54,816 nucleotides of DNA. Origin: Fimbriimonadaceae bacterium (GTDB taxonomy: Bacteria; Armatimonadota; Fimbriimonadia; Fimbriimonadales; Fimbriimonadaceae). The notes beneath the pieces are model-generated. The model was given only the letters and a program-made list of their open reading frames with translations. It was not told where the DNA came from and ran no database searches. The stretch lies in assembly GCA_024710805.1 (NCBI GenBank), contig JANJUB010000116.1, positions 1 to 54,816 on the forward strand, given 5' to 3'. Below are positions 37,213 to 47,485 of the stretch, in pieces. Both the position numbers and the translations under genes were made by a program. Every line of letters begins with the position of its first letter. Positions within the stretch are counted from its first letter, which is position 1.

Positions 37213-38130
37213 ATGAAGGGCGTCATTCTCGCGGCGGGCAAAGGCTCGCGACTGTTTCCGGTTACTCACCACATTCCGAAGCCGTTGCTTCCGATCGCGA
37301 ACCGCCCGACCCTGGAATACGCCTTCGATCGACTGAAGGAGATCGGGGTGCGTGAGATCGCTATCGTCGTTGGCGACAATGAACGGGAAATGCGGGCTGC
37401 GCTAGGCGATGGTTCCGCGTTTGGCCTGGAACTCGCCTACGTCCGGCAAAACGAGCCCAAGGGGCTCGCCCATGCCCTGGGGTTCGCCGAGTCGTTCATC
37501 GACCGAGAGCCCTTCGTGATGTATCTGGGTGACGCCATCTACAGCGAGGGCTTCACGCAGCACGCCGCGCGATTTGTGGAGAGTGGCGCGGCAAACTTGA
37601 ACATTGTGAAGCCAGTTGAGGACCCAAGCCGGTTCGGCGTAGCGAATGTGGACGGAGAGCGCATCACCAAGCTGGTGGAAAAGCCGAAGGAGCCCGAAAG
37701 CAATCTCGCGATGGCGGGGCTGTACTTCTTTGGCCCAGAGATCTGGGACGTGCTGCCCGGATTGGCGCCCAGCGCCCGCGGCGAGTATGAGATTACGGAT
37801 GCGATCCAGCGGCTGATCGATGGGGGGCAACTCGTGCTTGCCGGGGTCTATGAAGGCACCTGGTTTGATACGGGCACCCTCGACTCGTTTCTTGAAACAA
37901 GCGCATTCCTCACGGGGGGCAAGTCGCTCGTGGGCGACGCGGAAGTCCGGGGCGAAGTCACCGAAGGCGTGGTGATCGGAGACGGCGCGAAAGTTTCAGC
38001 GACCCGACTCGTGGATTGTGTCGTCCTGCCTGGGGCAAATGTTCAGGTCACCGGGACGATCCGCCATGCCATTCTCGGCGGAACCGTCGTCCGCGAGGGT
38101 GACGTGATGGACGCGATCCTCTGGGACTAG
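37213..38130 (+). CDS. RmlA-like sugar-1-phosphate nucleotidyltransferase
   Basis: The 305-aa protein begins MKGVILAAGKGSRLFPVT with the pyrophosphorylase loop G-x-G-x-R, then PKPLLPIANRPTLEYA, MYLGDAIY (metal Asp), LVEKPKEPES and EYEITDAIQRLID, and ends in a short left-handed beta-helix (VVIGDGAKVSATRLVDCVVL). This is the long-form glucose-1-phosphate thymidylyl/uridylyltransferase layout. It makes NDP-sugars for envelope polysaccharide. It converges with motB (4-bp overlap). Confidence 0.92.
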   Translation: MKGVILAAGKGSRLFPVTHHIPKPLLPIANRPTLEYAFDRLKEIGVREIAIVVGDNEREMRAALGDGSAFGLELAYVRQNEPKGLAHALGFAESFIDREPFVMYLGDAIYSEGFTQHAARFVESGAANLNIVKPVEDPSRFGVANVDGERITKLVEKPKEPESNLAMAGLYFFGPEIWDVLPGLAPSARGEYEITDAIQRLIDGGQLVLAGVYEGTWFDTGTLDSFLETSAFLTGGKSLVGDAEVRGEVTEGVVIGDGAKVSATRLVDCVVLPGANVQVTGTIRHAILGGTVVREGDVMDAILWD

Positions 38131-39071
38131 CGTCCGTCCCAGAAGCCCTTCTTCTTGGGCTTATCCGGGTGCTGCACTGGACTATCCTTGGTGATATCGA
38201 TCGTCGGTCGTAGGTCGATCGCCTTCTCCCTGATGTTGGGTTGAGCGATCTCGGTCATTGCGCCCGGGTTTGCTCCCTGGGGAATAGGCAACAAGATCGA
38301 CACGCGACGGTTAACCGAACTCGTCGGCTTGTCCGGATCGCGAAGCTGTGTATCCGCATAACCCGCGACGCTGAGGAACTGGTCCTGACCGACCCCGCCT
38401 ACCATCAGCTGGCGGCGTAGCGAGTTCGCGCGATCTTGGCTGAGGTCCCAGTTGTCGTAGTCCGTGCGCGCGTACGGCACGGCGTCGGTGTGGCCCTCGA
38501 TCTTCATCGGGCGGCTCGCTTCCGCGAGGATAGGGGCGATCTGGCCGACCAAAACACGGGCCTCTTTCCGCAATGTCGACGAGCCGCTCTCGAAGAAGAC
38601 GGCTCCTTTGTCCTCGCGAAACTCGATGCGAAGCCCTTCGGGAGTCATCTCGATGCTCACGCTGTCGAGCATGGCCTTCAAATCAGCCTGGCCGATGCCC
38701 GCCTCATCGCCCTTCTTGGCCGCCGTTTCCAGCGCTTGCATCACCTTGCCCATGACCATGATGACCTGGCGCTTGTTGTCCTGCATGATCTCAACACCCT
38801 GGTGCTTGACTGTGCCGGATTGGGTGATGGGAGTGCCGGGAAATCGAACGATGTTGCGGCTCATCGGGGCGGTCTTGGAGTAGCCCAACGGGTCGTTAAA
38901 GTAACCCGAAATCTGTGCCTTCGATTCATCGGAGAGGCCGAGAATCCACATCACCATGAAGAACGCCATCATGGCGGTCACGAAGTCGGCGTAGGCAACC
39001 TTCCACGAACCGCCGTGGTGGCCGTGGCCGTGCGCCTTCTTCTTCTTGATGATGATCGGGGTGCCTTCCAT
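38127..39071 (-). CDS. motB: Flagellar motor stator protein MotB
   Basis: The 314-aa product has a basic/His-rich N-terminus (IIIKKKKAHGHGHHGG), one membrane helix with the proton-carrying Asp in VAYADFVTAMMAFFMVMWIL, a plug-like region, and an OmpA/peptidoglycan-binding domain (IEGHTDAVPYARTDYDNWDLS, with the conserved D and R in SVNRRVSILL). It anchors the stator to the cell wall. It is downstream of motA, separated by 145 bp containing a palindromic repeat. Confidence 0.95.
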   Translation of the reverse strand: MEGTPIIIKKKKAHGHGHHGGSWKVAYADFVTAMMAFFMVMWILGLSDESKAQISGYFNDPLGYSKTAPMSRNIVRFPGTPITQSGTVKHQGVEIMQDNKRQVIMVMGKVMQALETAAKKGDEAGIGQADLKAMLDSVSIEMTPEGLRIEFREDKGAVFFESGSSTLRKEARVLVGQIAPILAEASRPMKIEGHTDAVPYARTDYDNWDLSQDRANSLRRQLMVGGVGQDQFLSVAGYADTQLRDPDKPTSSVNRRVSILLPIPQGANPGAMTEIAQPNIREKAIDLRPTIDITKDSPVQHPDKPKKKGFWDGR

Positions 39072-39216: not shown

Positions 39217-40080
39217 CTACGCCGCCGGTTTCTCCTTCACCGCCGACTCCATCTCGGCGAAGCCAGGGCGGACGGACGGCTCGATGTTGCGGCGAGCGAA
39301 CTCGACACACGTGATCGGCGACTCGCCGCGGGCGAAGCTGAAAAGGGCATAGCGGATGCAGTTCATGTAGCTGCTCTCGGCGGTCAGCCGAAGCTCGATC
39401 GCCTTCGCTAGCGGGGCGAACATGCCGTAGGCGAGGAGAATCCCAAGGAACGTACCGACCAGCGCGGCGGCAACCGATTGGCCGATCGCGGACGGGTCGC
39501 CCTCGGCGATCTTGCCCATCGTGATGATAACGCCCAAAACCGCCGCAACGATGCCGAAGCCCGGCATCGCGTCGCCCACCGTCTGGATCGCCGTCGCCGG
39601 CACCATCTGTTCTTGGTGGGCGGTCTCCAAGTCGATCTCCATCATCTCAGAGAGGTCATGCGGCCCGACTGCGCCGGTCAAGATGACCTTCATCGTGTCG
39701 CAGAAGAAGTCGCGGGCGTGGTGGTTGTTGAGGAACGACGGAAACTTCTTGATGATCTCGCTCTTCTCAGGGTCCTCGATGTGCTGTTCGAGGCCGAGGA
39801 GTCCTTCCTTTCGCGCGACGTTGAACAGCTGGAACATCATCTTCAGCACGTCGAGGTAGGCACCCTTGGTGTAGGGGTCGGGCTTGAGGAGCCCCATCAC
39901 CGCCTTGATCGCCCCCTGGAAGTTCTTCATCCCGTGCGCGGCGAGGAATGAGCCGAGGCCGCAACCGCCGATGATGATGAACTCGGTGACCTGCATCAAG
40001 ACGGCGACTTTGCCACCGTGCATGACGTAGCCCAGCATGGTGGCGACCAGCGCGATGAAGATGCCGATAAACGTGAACAT
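39217..40080 (-). CDS. motA: Flagellar motor stator protein MotA
   Basis: The 287-aa protein has four membrane helices (about 5-22, 33-50, 168-188, 199-220). It has the stator start FTFIGIFIALVATMLGYV, the TM2 region FIIIGGCGLGSFLAAH, DAMPGFGIVAAVLGVIITMG (TM3), and LVGTFLGILLAYGMFAPLA (TM4). With MotB it forms the ion channel that drives flagellar rotation. I start at ATG 40080, where AGGG precedes; a longer frame to 40155 overlaps mutL. A flagellar gene cluster is not present, only the stator. Confidence 0.95.
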   Translation of the reverse strand: MFTFIGIFIALVATMLGYVMHGGKVAVLMQVTEFIIIGGCGLGSFLAAHGMKNFQGAIKAVMGLLKPDPYTKGAYLDVLKMMFQLFNVARKEGLLGLEQHIEDPEKSEIIKKFPSFLNNHHARDFFCDTMKVILTGAVGPHDLSEMMEIDLETAHQEQMVPATAIQTVGDAMPGFGIVAAVLGVIITMGKIAEGDPSAIGQSVAAALVGTFLGILLAYGMFAPLAKAIELRLTAESSYMNCIRYALFSFARGESPITCVEFARRNIEPSVRPGFAEMESAVKEKPAA

Positions 40081-40113
40081 AGACCCTGTCCGCAGCCATG
40101 ACCGCCCCCGGCA

Positions 40114-41973
40114 ATGTTGCGCGGTGAGCGATACAATAGAATCATCGGCAACCAACCCCCGGCTACTCTAACCTCAAGCGAGAATCTGCCTGCGGATTCG
40201 CGCATTCGACTGCTCGATCCGCACACCGTCAACCAAATCGCGGCTGGCGAGGTCGTCGAGCGGCCCGCCTCGGTGGTCAAGGAACTCGTCGAAAACGCGC
40301 TCGACGCCGGAGCGACGCGGGTGATCGTCGAACTTACCGACGCCGGGCGGACCCTCATCCGGGTCAGCGACGACGGTATCGGCATGTCGCCCGAAGAAGC
40401 GCAAATGGCCCTCCAGCGCCACGCGACGTCGAAGATCACCTCGGCGGATGATCTGCTTCTGGTTTCGACGCTGGGGTTCCGAGGAGAGGCCGTCCCCTCG
40501 ATTGCTTCGGTGTCGCGGTTCACGCTCTCGACCGGCACCGACGACAGTGGGCGCACACGCATCAGCGTGGAGGGCGGGACGATCCAAGGCGTTGACCGCG
40601 TCGCCGGACCGCGAGGGACGGAGATCACGGTCGAGGACCTGTTCTTCAACACCCCCGCGCGGCTTAAGTTTCTTAAGAGCGATACAACCGAGCTCTCGGC
40701 CGCGCTCGAGCATGTCACCCGCTACGCGATGGCCTACCCGCACGTGGCGTTCACCGTGATCCACAACGGCCAGCAGGCCCTGGCGACCACCGGCTCGGGC
40801 GATCTACAGGGAGCAGTCGCCGAACTGTGGGGACGGGATCAGGCGCGTGGAATGGTGCCGGCCGAGCTGGTTCACCCGAATCTGCGCGTCCACGGATGGG
40901 TGAGTCCGCCCTACATGACCCGCCCGACGCGCGCCTACCAATACGTCTACGTGAATGGGCGGCCGGTGCGATCGCGCATGCTGACCGCCGCGGTCGACCA
41001 GGCATACCGTGACCTGACCCCCGAGAAGCGGTACCCCGGCGTGGTGCTAATGATCGACGTCGATCCGGCGCGGGTCGATGTGAACGTCTCTCCCACCAAG
41101 AGCGAGGTGCGGTTCCAGCAGGAAGGGCAGGCGTTTGACGCGGTGCGCACCGCCATCCGCGCCGCGCTGATGGAGAGCGGCATGATGCCCGACGCGGCCG
41201 GGATCGCGGCCGCCAATCAGGCCCTCGCCGAGTCCGCGGTCTCTTCGCCGATGAGCACGTTCGGGGCGGGCATCTTTGAAGCGGTGATGGCCGCGCAAGC
41301 TCCGCTCGAGATGCCGGTACCGATGCCGGAGAGCTCAGTCGAGCTTCCCGCGGGAGTCACCGGCGACCGTGAGCGGTTTCCTTTCATCGAACTCCTCGAG
41401 GGGTTGCGGGTGATCGGGCAAGCGATGAACACCTTCATCATCGCGGAGACCGCCCGTGGCATCGTGATCATCGACCAGCACGTGGCCCACGAGCGGATCC
41501 TCTATGAATACCTGTGCGGACTAAAAGGCCCCCATGCCATCGAGCGGCAAACGCTGATGGCTCCGGAGACCCTCCACCTCGACCGTCCTGCGGCGACCAT
41601 GCTCCGCGAACGGCTGCAAGAGGTGGTCGATGTGGGCTTCGACGTCGAGCCGTTCGGCGGGGAGAGCTTTGTGGTGCGGGCGGTTCCCGCCGCGCTGCGC
41701 GGCAAAGATCCGATGCGGGTGCTCAGGGATGTGGTGGATGAACTCGTCGATAGCGCGGTGTCGCGCAAGCTCACCCCCACGCGAGAAGCGATCTGGATCA
41801 TGAGCGCCTGCAAGATGGCGGTGAAGGCCGGCGATCCGTTGTCGCATGCCGAGATGGAGAAACTGATCCTCGACTTGGCGACGACGGAGAATCCTTATCT
41901 CTGCCCCCACGGCCGCCCGATCACGATCACCCTCTCGCGACACGAACTCTTGAAGAAGTTCTATCGGCATTAG
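40114..41973 (+). CDS. mutL: DNA mismatch repair protein MutL
   Basis: The 619-aa product (from ATG 40114) has the GHKL ATPase core: IRLLDPHTVNQIAAGEVVERP, NALDAGAT, VSDDGIGM, ATSKITSADDL and GFRGEAVPSIASV. The C-terminal domain has DQHVAHERILYE (endonuclease DQHA-x2-E-x4-E motif with A to V), ACKMAVKAGDPL, and CPHGRP, so it is the nicking-endonuclease type used where MutH is absent. A TACAAT box lies inside the presumed coding start (40132-40137), so the true start may be later (see findings). It is divergent from motA. Confidence 0.96.
   Translation: MLRGERYNRIIGNQPPATLTSSENLPADSRIRLLDPHTVNQIAAGEVVERPASVVKELVENALDAGATRVIVELTDAGRTLIRVSDDGIGMSPEEAQMALQRHATSKITSADDLLLVSTLGFRGEAVPSIASVSRFTLSTGTDDSGRTRISVEGGTIQGVDRVAGPRGTEITVEDLFFNTPARLKFLKSDTTELSAALEHVTRYAMAYPHVAFTVIHNGQQALATTGSGDLQGAVAELWGRDQARGMVPAELVHPNLRVHGWVSPPYMTRPTRAYQYVYVNGRPVRSRMLTAAVDQAYRDLTPEKRYPGVVLMIDVDPARVDVNVSPTKSEVRFQQEGQAFDAVRTAIRAALMESGMMPDAAGIAAANQALAESAVSSPMSTFGAGIFEAVMAAQAPLEMPVPMPESSVELPAGVTGDRERFPFIELLEGLRVIGQAMNTFIIAETARGIVIIDQHVAHERILYEYLCGLKGPHAIERQTLMAPETLHLDRPAATMLRERLQEVVDVGFDVEPFGGESFVVRAVPAALRGKDPMRVLRDVVDELVDSAVSRKLTPTREAIWIMSACKMAVKAGDPLSHAEMEKLILDLATTENPYLCPHGRPITITLSRHELLKKFYRH
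40132..40137 (+). promoter_or_regulatory. Possible -10 box within the annotated mutL start
   Basis: TACAAT lies 18 nt downstream of the first ATG and 6 nt before an in-frame ATC at 40144, matching the local leaderless spacing. Confidence 0.35.
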
Positions 41974-43507: not shown

Positions 43508-44776
43508 TTAAGCGGCTTCGCTGATAATGATCGGCTCCATCACCACGGAGGTGAGAAGCTCCTTACCTGTCCGCCCCGACTCGGGGAACGACGCATGGCC
43601 AATCTCGACCCGTACCGGCGAGTTGCGGGCGTAGCGCTGGTTCACCCAAGATACGATCTTGCCGACCAAGCGGCGCTGGATCAACGGCACGTTATGCCCC
43701 GACGACGGCAAGATGACCCCGAAAGCGCTCTCCTCGTGTCGGCACACCAGGTCGAGACGGCGGACCGAGTCGCGGATGAAGTCGGCGGCGTCAGCGAGAA
43801 AGTCATCGACGCTGGAGGCCCCATAGAACTTGCGCAGCGTCTCCAGTCCAGAGAAGCGAATCACCACGATGCCGACTGCCGCCTCGTTACAGGACGCTCG
43901 GTGGACCTCTTCTTCAAGGCGCGTTCGGAAGAATCCTTCGGTGTAGGCGCCGGTAAGCGGATCGACCACATCATAGTCGATCTCCGAAGCCTGGCGGCGA
44001 AGCAGCCGATCCTGCTCCTGCTCCTTCTGCAGGATCTTCCGGAGCTTGGCGAGCGACTGCCGCAGGATATGGGAGACGTAGTTGCCCGAGATGTCGAGTC
44101 GCGCCGCAATCTCCGTCTGGCTCAGCGAGTCGAAGTGGAACATCACGAGGACTTGCCGCTCGAGATCACGCAGCTGGCTCATCGCCTGCTCGAGAACCAA
44201 GCGATCTTCGACGCTCAGCTGCTCGACGCAGTAGTCGCTGGAATCCAGCCGCTCGACTTCGGATTCGCCGTCGTCGTCGGTCGGCGTCGTGTCCAGCGAG
44301 GAGAGCTTGAGCATCTCTTGAGTCAGGAACACTTCGCGGACCGAGGTCTCGGTGACGCCCAGATGCTCTGCGATCTCGCGCTCCGTGGGTTGGCGGCAGA
44401 GATTCGCCTGCAATAGGCCAGCGGCCTTGGTCACCTTGTGCCGAAGCTCCTGGAGCCAAGCGGGCTGCCGGATGGTTTGCGCCCGGTCCCGAAGGTAGTG
44501 CTTCATCTCACCGGCGACCAGATAGGTCGCGTAGGTGTTGAACCGTACGCCTGCCGTCGGGTCGAACTTGGTCAACGCGTTGAGCAGTCCGATAAACCCG
44601 ACTTGGACGAGATCCTCGAAGGGCTCGATCCCGGCGAAGCGCCGAGCAATCCGCTCGACCATCCCCGAGTACTGCACGAGGACCAGATCCTTCAGGTCTT
44701 CGCGCCGAGTTTCCAGGTAGCGCAGAACAAGCGATTCGCCATCATTGGCCGCATCAAATTCCTTTCCCATTGACAT
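43508..44776 (-). CDS. SigB/SigF/FliA-type sigma factor fused to a degenerate GGDEF domain
   Basis: The 422-aa product starts at ATG 44776, which has GAGGG 5 nt upstream. Residues ~30-100 are sigma region 2 (EDLVQVGFIGLLNALTKFDP, RFNTYATYLVAGEMKHYLRD, which contacts core RNA polymerase and the -10). Residues ~105-165 are region 3 with TEREIAEHLGVTETSVREVF. Residues ~195-250 are region 4 with the -35-binding helix-turn-helix (LSQTEIAARLDISGNYVSHI). After a charged linker, residues ~268-400 follow the GGDEF fold: DPLTGAYTEGFF, VVIRFSGLETL, FLADAADFIRDSVRRLDLVC. The signature is EESAF (348-352) and the metal Asp in strand 1 is lost, but R339-x-x-D342 keeps the c-di-GMP I-site at the standard distance. 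It is upstream of kbl and near pilC, motA and motB. Confidence 0.93.
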   Translation of the reverse strand: MSMGKEFDAANDGESLVLRYLETRREDLKDLVLVQYSGMVERIARRFAGIEPFEDLVQVGFIGLLNALTKFDPTAGVRFNTYATYLVAGEMKHYLRDRAQTIRQPAWLQELRHKVTKAAGLLQANLCRQPTEREIAEHLGVTETSVREVFLTQEMLKLSSLDTTPTDDDGESEVERLDSSDYCVEQLSVEDRLVLEQAMSQLRDLERQVLVMFHFDSLSQTEIAARLDISGNYVSHILRQSLAKLRKILQKEQEQDRLLRRQASEIDYDVVDPLTGAYTEGFFRTRLEEEVHRASCNEAAVGIVVIRFSGLETLRKFYGASSVDDFLADAADFIRDSVRRLDLVCRHEESAFGVILPSSGHNVPLIQRRLVGKIVSWVNQRYARNSPVRVEIGHASFPESGRTGKELLTSVVMEPIIISEAA

Positions 44777-44838
44777 CAATCCCTCGATTTCTTTTCGCGA
44801 CCCAATCCTTGGATCGCGTGCCTCCCAGCCGTAACCAA

Positions 44839-44871: not shown

Positions 44872-46074
44872 CTACTTCACGCTGTTGACCAGCTTGAAGA
44901 TGGGGGTCATGACGGAGATCGCGATGAAGCCCACGATTCCGCCCATGAACATGATCAGCGCGGGCTCGATCATGCTCGTCAAACCTTTGACCGTCGCTTC
45001 GACCTCTGAGTCGTAGAAGTCACCGACCTTGACCAACATCTCGGAGAGTCGTCCTGACTCTTCGCCGACGTCGATCATGCACGTCACCATGGTCGGGAAC
45101 AGGTTGGATTTCGCCAGCGGGTCGCTGAGCTTTTGTCCTTCCCGAATGCTGGTGCGCGTCTGGTCGATCGCTTGCGTCAGCACCGCGTTGTTCATCGTCT
45201 CACCGACGATTTCCAAGCTGCGTAGCATGGGCACGCCACTATTGATCAGCGTTCCGAAGGTCCGCGTGAAGCGGGCAATCGACATCTTAAGCGCGAGTTC
45301 GCCAATGATCGGCATCTTGAGCTTCATGTAGTCGAGCTTGTAGCGACCGTTAGGCGTCTTGCCCCACTGCTTGATGCCAAACCAAATGCCACCCGTCGCA
45401 AGGATGATCATCCACCAACTGGACTGCATGAAGTCGCCGAACTTGAACATCGCCGCCGTGACCGGAGGCAGTTCCACATCCATGCCCGTGAAGATCTCCT
45501 TGAACTTTGGAAGCACAAAGGAGAACAGGATGAAGAGCATCAGGATCGAGAACACGAGCACCAGCACGGGGTACATCATCGCGCTCTTGATCTTGCCCTT
45601 GATCTCGGCCTCGTACTCGAGGAACCCGGCCAAGCGGTCGAGAATCAAGTCGAGGATGCCGCCGACTTCGGCCGCTCGGATCATGTTCACGTAGAGCTTG
45701 CTGAAGACCGCGGGGTGCTTCATCAGCGCCTCGTTCAACGCCATACCGCTCTTCACGTCGTTCGTGACGGATTCGAGCGTCTCCTTCATGATCGGGTCCT
45801 TCGCCTGGCCGCTGAGAATATCCAGACAGCGCAAGATCGGAATGCCCGAGTCGATCATCGTGGCGAACTGTCGCGAGAAGACGACAATCGTCTTCGGCTT
45901 CAGCTTCTTGCGACCGACCGAGAACGAGCCGCCCTTCTTGGCGACCTTGATATCGGTGCAGTGCATGGCCTGGTCGCGCAACTTCGACAGCACCAGCGTT
46001 TCGCTGTCTGCTTCCATTGTGCTCTTAACCGTTCTTCCCGACGAGTCGATCGCCGTATAGGCAAACACCGGCAT
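44872..46074 (-). CDS. pilC: Type II secretion / type IV pilus inner-membrane protein (GspF/PilC)
   Basis: The 400-aa product has two GspF domains: FSRQFATMIDSGIPILRCLDIL (first) and FTRTFGTLINSGVPMLRSLEIV (second), with membrane helices around 170-195, 220-240 and 370-395. It begins with the PilC-style MPVFAYTAIDSSGRTVKSTM. It is the platform protein on which pilins or pseudopilins assemble. An AGGAG ribosome site is 11 nt before the ATG at 46074. No ATPase (pilB/pilT) is adjacent. Confidence 0.95.
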   Translation of the reverse strand: MPVFAYTAIDSSGRTVKSTMEADSETLVLSKLRDQAMHCTDIKVAKKGGSFSVGRKKLKPKTIVVFSRQFATMIDSGIPILRCLDILSGQAKDPIMKETLESVTNDVKSGMALNEALMKHPAVFSKLYVNMIRAAEVGGILDLILDRLAGFLEYEAEIKGKIKSAMMYPVLVLVFSILMLFILFSFVLPKFKEIFTGMDVELPPVTAAMFKFGDFMQSSWWMIILATGGIWFGIKQWGKTPNGRYKLDYMKLKMPIIGELALKMSIARFTRTFGTLINSGVPMLRSLEIVGETMNNAVLTQAIDQTRTSIREGQKLSDPLAKSNLFPTMVTCMIDVGEESGRLSEMLVKVGDFYDSEVEATVKGLTSMIEPALIMFMGGIVGFIAISVMTPIFKLVNSVK

Positions 46075-46264: not shown

Positions 46265-47485
46265 ATGGATCGGCGATTGGGACTTATTGGAATAGCGTTT
46301 GCCGCGCTGCTGTCGGGTTGCAGCGCCCGATCGGAGCTGGCCTTCCCGGATTGGCTCCGCAACTCAGGCTCCACGCCGTCGCCAGAAGGGCGCTACGTCG
46401 CCTATGCCCGCGCGGCCGACCAGGTCGAATCTGCAGCGGAAAAGTACCTCGCCACGGTCTACTTCACCCCCGGCAAGCGCGATGCCTGTCTGAAGCTCAT
46501 CGGGCCCGCTCTGAAGACCCTGTCGCAAGGCTCGACGCGTGCCGAGCTTGGCTGGGGCTTCACGCCCACCTCGGCTCTCGAATCGCCCGACAACGTCGCG
46601 GCATGGCGCTTGCTCGGGCGAGGATTGGTCTGGAAGATCGAGACCGCGGTTCGAGAATCCGACCATCAGACCGCCATTCGCTGCGCGATACTTGCTACGC
46701 GCTTCGGGATGGATCTCGTCGGCGGCGGGGCGATGGAGGGTTCGCTGGGGCTCGCGATTTGTGATGAGGCCCGCCGAGCGATTTCGCCCGCGTTGCCCAA
46801 GCTGACTCCCGAAGAGCTCAGTCAACTGGCAAACGGGATTGGCAACGTCCTCGTGAAGCGGCCCGACCTCTCGGACACCATCGAACACGAGCGGCTGAAC
46901 CTGCTCGCAGGGGTCCAGCAGATTCAAGACGCCTACCGCGACGAAGCCTGGGGGCAGCTGGTCAAGGGGTTCGGCCCCGACGTCCGCGCTGCGGTCGATC
47001 GCCTGAAGGAAATGAAGCTGAAGGAGCCGGCGAGCGCGATCGGGTTCTTCAAGGGGCTCGCCGATGAGGCGGATCAAGAGGCTCGGTACTACGCCACCCT
47101 TGCCGAACTCCCTCGCGGACAGCGCAACGACCTCAACAAGCCCGACCACGATCCCGGCCGACCCTGGCGTAGATTTGCCCGACATTGCGTGGGGACACTG
47201 AGACCGCTCCTCGACCAATACGACAGCACGCTCGCCCGCACCCGATTGCTGGTGCTGGAAGCGGAGCTGCAGAAGCGCGCCCGAGCCGGCGATCCGTTCC
47301 CGCGCGACCTGAAGCAGTTCGGTGCCGACCTAGCAACCGATCCGTACTCCGGCGAACCTTTCCCCTACCGTGCGGATGGGACGGACTACCGCGTGTACAG
47401 CGTCGGTCCCGACCTAAGCGATGACGGGGGCCAGACGGACGAGACGTTCGCGTCGCCGGATGTTCGACTAGAGTCGCGCGCGTGA
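46265..47485 (+). CDS. Lipoprotein, hypothetical, with pseudopilin-like C-terminal motif
   Basis: This 406-aa lipoprotein (MDRRLGLIGIAFAALLSGC) is mostly helical. Its last ~50 residues read LATDPYSGEPFPYRADG and YRVYSVGPDLSDDGG, like the calcium-binding C-terminal end of GspG-type major pseudopilins (DPWG-x-P-Y ... Y-S-x-G-x-D-x-x-x-G). It may be linked to the pilC gene on the other strand. A hairpin GGTGAC/GTCACC (46233-46249) sits in the leader, with TAAGAT just before. I do not recognise the helical part. Confidence 0.8.
   Translation: MDRRLGLIGIAFAALLSGCSARSELAFPDWLRNSGSTPSPEGRYVAYARAADQVESAAEKYLATVYFTPGKRDACLKLIGPALKTLSQGSTRAELGWGFTPTSALESPDNVAAWRLLGRGLVWKIETAVRESDHQTAIRCAILATRFGMDLVGGGAMEGSLGLAICDEARRAISPALPKLTPEELSQLANGIGNVLVKRPDLSDTIEHERLNLLAGVQQIQDAYRDEAWGQLVKGFGPDVRAAVDRLKEMKLKEPASAIGFFKGLADEADQEARYYATLAELPRGQRNDLNKPDHDPGRPWRRFARHCVGTLRPLLDQYDSTLARTRLLVLEAELQKRARAGDPFPRDLKQFGADLATDPYSGEPFPYRADGTDYRVYSVGPDLSDDGGQTDETFASPDVRLESRA

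Follow-up and report, generated by a model that had tools for sequence, protein, structure and literature searches.

A minus-strand gene (43508-44779) in the window, by which we mean the whole stretch of 54,816 nucleotides analysed here, encodes a sigma factor of 423 amino acids whose C-terminal part is a catalytically dead GGDEF domain that has kept its c-di-GMP inhibitory site (I-site) residues. We read the product as a one-component, c-di-GMP-gated sigma factor in which the GGDEF domain would act in cis on the sigma part, with a putative role in surface motility or pili, and from the sequence we put the probability of this reading at about 0.68. Residues are numbered here from the TTG codon that gives the 423 amino acids; the ATG at 44776, one codon further on, is the likelier start, and the residue numbers of the first-pass annotation, counted from that ATG, are ours minus one.

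Pfam places Sigma70_r2 at residues 36-100, Sigma70_r3 at 111-170, Sigma70_r4 at 199-248 and the GGDEF domain at 272-410, the last as a match above the cut-off with an E value of 2.9e-16. With regions 2, 3 and 4 all over the Pfam cut-offs and region 1.2 absent, the sigma part (residues 30-250; 44030..44692, minus strand) falls in group 3 of the sigma-70 factors, where Pfam and NCBIfam together mark it as SigB/F/G-like, and the closest solved structure is a SigB-type sigma of S. aureus. Among the NCBIfam sigma models shown, only the cut-off of the general sigma-70 superfamily was passed and those of the named subfamilies were not, the scores being 178 bits for SigBFG (TIGR02980, cut-off 234) and 120 bits for FliA_WhiG (TIGR02479, cut-off 190), which indicates a separate subfamily. 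Nor is the protein the flagellar sigma factor itself, since the genome has another sigma that reaches 236 bits with the FliA/WhiG model, above the cut-off. A defence-system reading of the gene was rejected, its sole support being a weak, sigma-like match to MzaA. Autoregulation through SigB-, FliA- or sigma70-like promoters was also rejected, as the region upstream of the gene scored no better than shuffles, and no promoter motif was found there.

The joining of the two parts, first proposed from this one sequence, is real and not due to chance: a full-length match is present in 58 of the 61 genomes searched within the order, the three genomes that have none being of 72-86% completeness, and further classes of the phylum have the same architecture at ∼36-44% identity. 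The orthologue alignment used below holds 101 sequences from one phylum (probably Armatimonadota), all related by ancestry, so that counts taken over it are not independent events and Fisher P values are descriptive only. A contig search with the fusion sequence returned only a same-genus contig, 97% identical (JADZEW010000016.1, our L031), whose title, Methanoregulaceae archaeon, appears to be that of a mis-titled MAG record. In one single-contig genome the orthologue match (G102:C1:2834326-2835294) ends near residue 335, just short of the I-site, and a TGA lies in the stretch; this interrupted orthologue is either a pseudogene or a sequencing error.

The GGDEF domain (residues 272-410; 43550..43966, minus strand) is identified by Pfam, by its predicted model and by Foldseek. 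Modelled alone it reached a pLDDT of 93.9 and a pTM of 0.88, and the Foldseek matches of this model were GGDEF structures, PleD bound to c-di-GMP among them. The first-pass annotation had claimed a GGDEF fold after the sigma part and had named a prediction lacking that fold as grounds for abandoning the claim; the fold is there. In the full-length model (pLDDT 88, pTM 0.48) each domain is confident and their mutual placement is not fixed. The final helix of sigma region 4 and the linker are predicted in this model to form one continuous helix (residues 232-266; 43982..44086, minus strand), which joins region 4 to the GGDEF domain. Across the orthologues the spacing between K245 and D273 varies from 21 to 39 residues, mainly clustered at 27-28, 32 and 37-38.

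Motif alignment puts EESAF (43721..43735, minus strand) in the position of GG[DE]EF, and an intact GG[DE]EF was found in none of the 101 orthologues. The metal-binding Asp is gone too, as the initial reading had it, leaving the fusion protein with neither of the features by which an active diguanylate cyclase is recognised. The register given for the motif also stands, the HMMER profile alignment matching RRLD-LVC-R-H-EESAF of the fusion to RAID-LPC-R-Y-GGEEF of PleD. Residues R313, R359, D362 and R390 of PleD are the reported I-site set, between them holding a c-di-GMP dimer that bridges two GGDEF subunits (PMC7288161), and c-di-GMP cross-links two such subunits through their I-sites (PMC8041772). 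By the same profile alignment, R294 (43898..43900) is equivalent to PleD R313 of the secondary I-site, and R340 (43760..43762), D343 (43751..43753) and R370 (43670..43672), likewise on the minus strand, to R359, D362 and R390 of the primary I-site. R340 and D343, the R339 and D342 of the first-pass annotation, are kept in 101/101 orthologues, R294 in 100/101 and R370 in 97/101, and all four ligand residues occur together in 96/101. The poor conservation of RxxD that was to have told against a retained I-site is therefore not what the orthologues display.

This conservation is set in a domain whose mean pairwise identity among orthologues is 31%. All four I-site columns are within the top 7 by conservation of the 153 domain columns, for which the chance with four pre-named columns is P=1.6e-6. 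As a control, the canonical GGDEF domains of the same genomes were compared: RxxD is present in 30 of 48, so that RxxD taken alone is weak evidence, and all four ligands are present in 5 of 48. The argument draws its strength from the invariance of the whole site after catalysis was lost. Since the domain combines the GGDEF fold and RxxD with the additional arginines equivalent to PleD R313 and R390, all of them marks of an I-site receptor, it probably binds c-di-GMP, and a source of the ligand exists in four further full-length GGDEF domains that the genome encodes. In three further proteins of the phylum with a degenerate GGDEF domain (L153, L149 and L152, carrying SGDGF, SGKQF and GTDGF), RxxD has been lost, and their function is perhaps different.

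The helix ahead of R294 carries three near-invariant, family-specific residues, R287, E290 and E291 (residues 287-291, window 43907-43921), which lie outside the known I-site ligands and possibly form an interface with the sigma part or between the two subunits of a dimer. These residues bear on an alternative in which the GGDEF domain serves for protein docking and recruits a diguanylate cyclase or some other partner, its arginines being kept for that contact and not for c-di-GMP. A contact in trans between a GGDEF domain and a sigma factor has a precedent in RmdB, whose GGDEF domain binds sigma-WhiG (PMC13232838), and the conserved triad would suit such a surface. However, it would be surprising for a docking surface to fall on precisely the four PleD ligand positions, or to preserve the R294-R340 spacing in 96/101 orthologues and the R340-R370 spacing in 98/101, and we regard docking as unlikely.

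The protein ends in Ala-Ala (43511..43516, minus strand), an ending that the first-pass annotation did not mention and that the orthologue comparison marks as a candidate ClpXP degron. This ending is found in 89/101 orthologues, as against 11/444 other long ORFs of the same loci, and -[AV]A is found in 95/101. The tail that precedes it is unconserved, varies from 7 to 37 residues in length and is of low confidence in the model (pLDDT about 50), so that the fusion protein has the conserved Ala-Ala on an unstructured tail that is looked for in ClpXP substrates. Because each of the four Ala codons and each of the three stop codons occurs among the orthologues, a nucleotide-level effect can be ruled out and selection for -AA acts on the protein. 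A ClpX gene was found, and the tmRNA tag encoded within the window likewise ends in -AA. For sigma-AntA, an -AA ending in 67/71 orthologues predicted degradation by ClpXP, which was then proven (PMC7142297), and by analogy we infer that the fusion sigma is degraded by ClpXP through its own -AA. RxxD is kept in the deep lineages L099, L101 and L102, which lack the ending, and in the protein of the reduced-genome lineage g29 (L052), and receptor and tail are thus separable.

Control might instead be mainly proteolytic, with c-di-GMP binding by the GGDEF domain serving to gate just an adaptor or ClpX and not the engagement of promoter or RNA polymerase. The prevalence of -AA after an unconserved tail and the fate of sigma-AntA are both in keeping with this, as is PopA, a dead GGDEF protein with intact RxxD that delivers CtrA to ClpXP (PMC12564702). 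The lineages just named speak against it, since they show receptor motif and tail to be separable, and we consider this explanation improbable. That the domain is an inert relic, its RxxD persisting from structural need or shared ancestry, is very improbable: RxxD is indeed common in GGDEF domains generally, but here the I-site is invariant while most other domain columns drift, and the fold does not require the R359 equivalent, which is replaced in 16/48 canonical GGDEF domains and in all three of the other degenerate ones.

The neighbourhood gives some indication of what the sigma factor may govern. MotA (39217-40155), MotB (38127-39071), pilC and an HD-domain protein (377-1894, first described as HD-GYP) are all present in the window as initially reported; pilC alone proved to be a conserved neighbour, and MotA, MotB and the HD protein are uninformative as context because they were not found near the sigma gene in other genomes. 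The pilC gene (T2SSF; 44872..46074, minus strand) is directly upstream of the sigma gene here and immediately upstream of it in several lineages, and in other lineages a gene for a pilT-type ATPase lies upstream of pilC. Divergent from pilC in the window is a 406-aa ORF (46265-47485, plus strand) that has no Pfam match. At four loci from four genera of family f5, a canonical diguanylate cyclase is divergent to the pilC-sigma pair (L032:5170-6234, L036:2549-3427, L037:7734-8702 and L038:3294-4370).

Within the class, FliF was found in 77/80 high-quality genomes that have the sigma factor and in 0/8 of those that do not; FliF was not detected in the sigma-positive class members G004, G031 and G047. 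The eight high-quality genomes without the sigma factor are all of genus g19 (G062, G063, G064, G071, G073, G075, G076 and G078) and also have no linked pilC, no PilT orthologue and no FliF; the eight absences may represent a single loss event. Lineages g27 and g29 have kept the sigma factor and flagella and are missing the linked pilC/pilT. Beyond the class the association loosens: FliF was not found in several sigma-positive genomes, and some FliF-bearing lineages gave only a weak match to the sigma factor. Of the programmes that the first-pass annotation proposed as being switched, the pilus is thus backed by pilC synteny and motility by co-occurrence with flagella; nothing was found to connect the gene with a sporulation-like programme.

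Returning to the reading of a c-di-GMP-gated sigma factor, control of the sigma part by the GGDEF domain in cis is probable, as far as sequence can tell. As for its direction, the likelier choice is that high c-di-GMP turns the sigma factor off. A c-di-GMP dimer would be bound by R340, D343 and R370 from one subunit together with R294 from a second, so that two sigma molecules become cross-linked in the manner of PleD, and the signal would travel through the joining helix to sigma region 4. The sigma factor would then be kept off core RNA polymerase or off the -35 element, and/or its -AA tail would become accessible to ClpXP. At low c-di-GMP, free sigma would transcribe type IV pilus genes and other surface-motility genes. 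The GGDEF domain would in effect be a tethered anti-sigma factor, making a separate one unnecessary; a search of the genome for a small, free-standing RsbW-like anti-sigma found none, and no anti-sigma gene was seen at the locus beside the sigma-GGDEF gene. More tentatively, and at somewhat less than even odds, the family may be a class of sigma factors, spread across the phylum, that double as second-messenger receptors and carry a ClpXP degron, in which c-di-GMP would set both activity and lifetime, for pilus and motility genes.

The nearest logic among known systems is the RsiG-(c-di-GMP)-sigma WhiG switch of Streptomyces and Rubrobacter. In Rubrobacter this switch has type IV pilus genes under its control (PMC8325347). 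There too a c-di-GMP dimer controls a group 3 sigma factor, and cyclase and phosphodiesterase genes are among its targets; in contrast, the sensing there falls to an anti-sigma protein distinct from the sigma, a coiled coil that bears ExxxSxxRxxxQxxxD motifs, where here an I-site GGDEF domain lies within the sigma factor. The GGDEF domain of RmdB also touches sigma WhiG (PMC13232838), but does so in trans, from a phosphodiesterase, and antagonises the anti-sigma. Caulobacter PopA and further I-site receptors of the GGDEF type, such as PelD, share the dead GGDEF domain and intact RxxD, and PopA also ties c-di-GMP to ClpXP, although these proteins carry no attached sigma factor and their output is localisation, CtrA proteolysis or exopolysaccharide. 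The product-inhibited cyclases PleD, WspR and DgcR have the same fold and I-site, in PleD with the same four residues and the cross-linking of two subunits; unlike the fusion family, which has no GG[DE]EF, they are enzymes that retain it. Sigma-AntA of Streptomyces has orthologues ending in -Ala-Ala and no dedicated anti-sigma (PMC7142297), but is an ECF sigma without a c-di-GMP domain.

No paper describing a cis sigma-GGDEF fusion was found in the literature searched, which was mostly open-access, and the fusion places a known receptor type on a new output. In the searchable literature c-di-GMP controls sigma factors through separate proteins, whereas the putative receptor of this family is a domain of the sigma factor itself. 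As one gene holds the receptor, the receptor, switch and output could be tested with a single purified protein and RNA polymerase. If the reading is true, the messenger may switch gene expression directly, without an intermediary protein, and the fusion would provide a ready c-di-GMP-responsive sigma factor for laboratory gene circuits. It would also show how the transcription machinery can acquire a regulatory domain from a dead cyclase, and would constitute a central motility and surface switch for the phylum.
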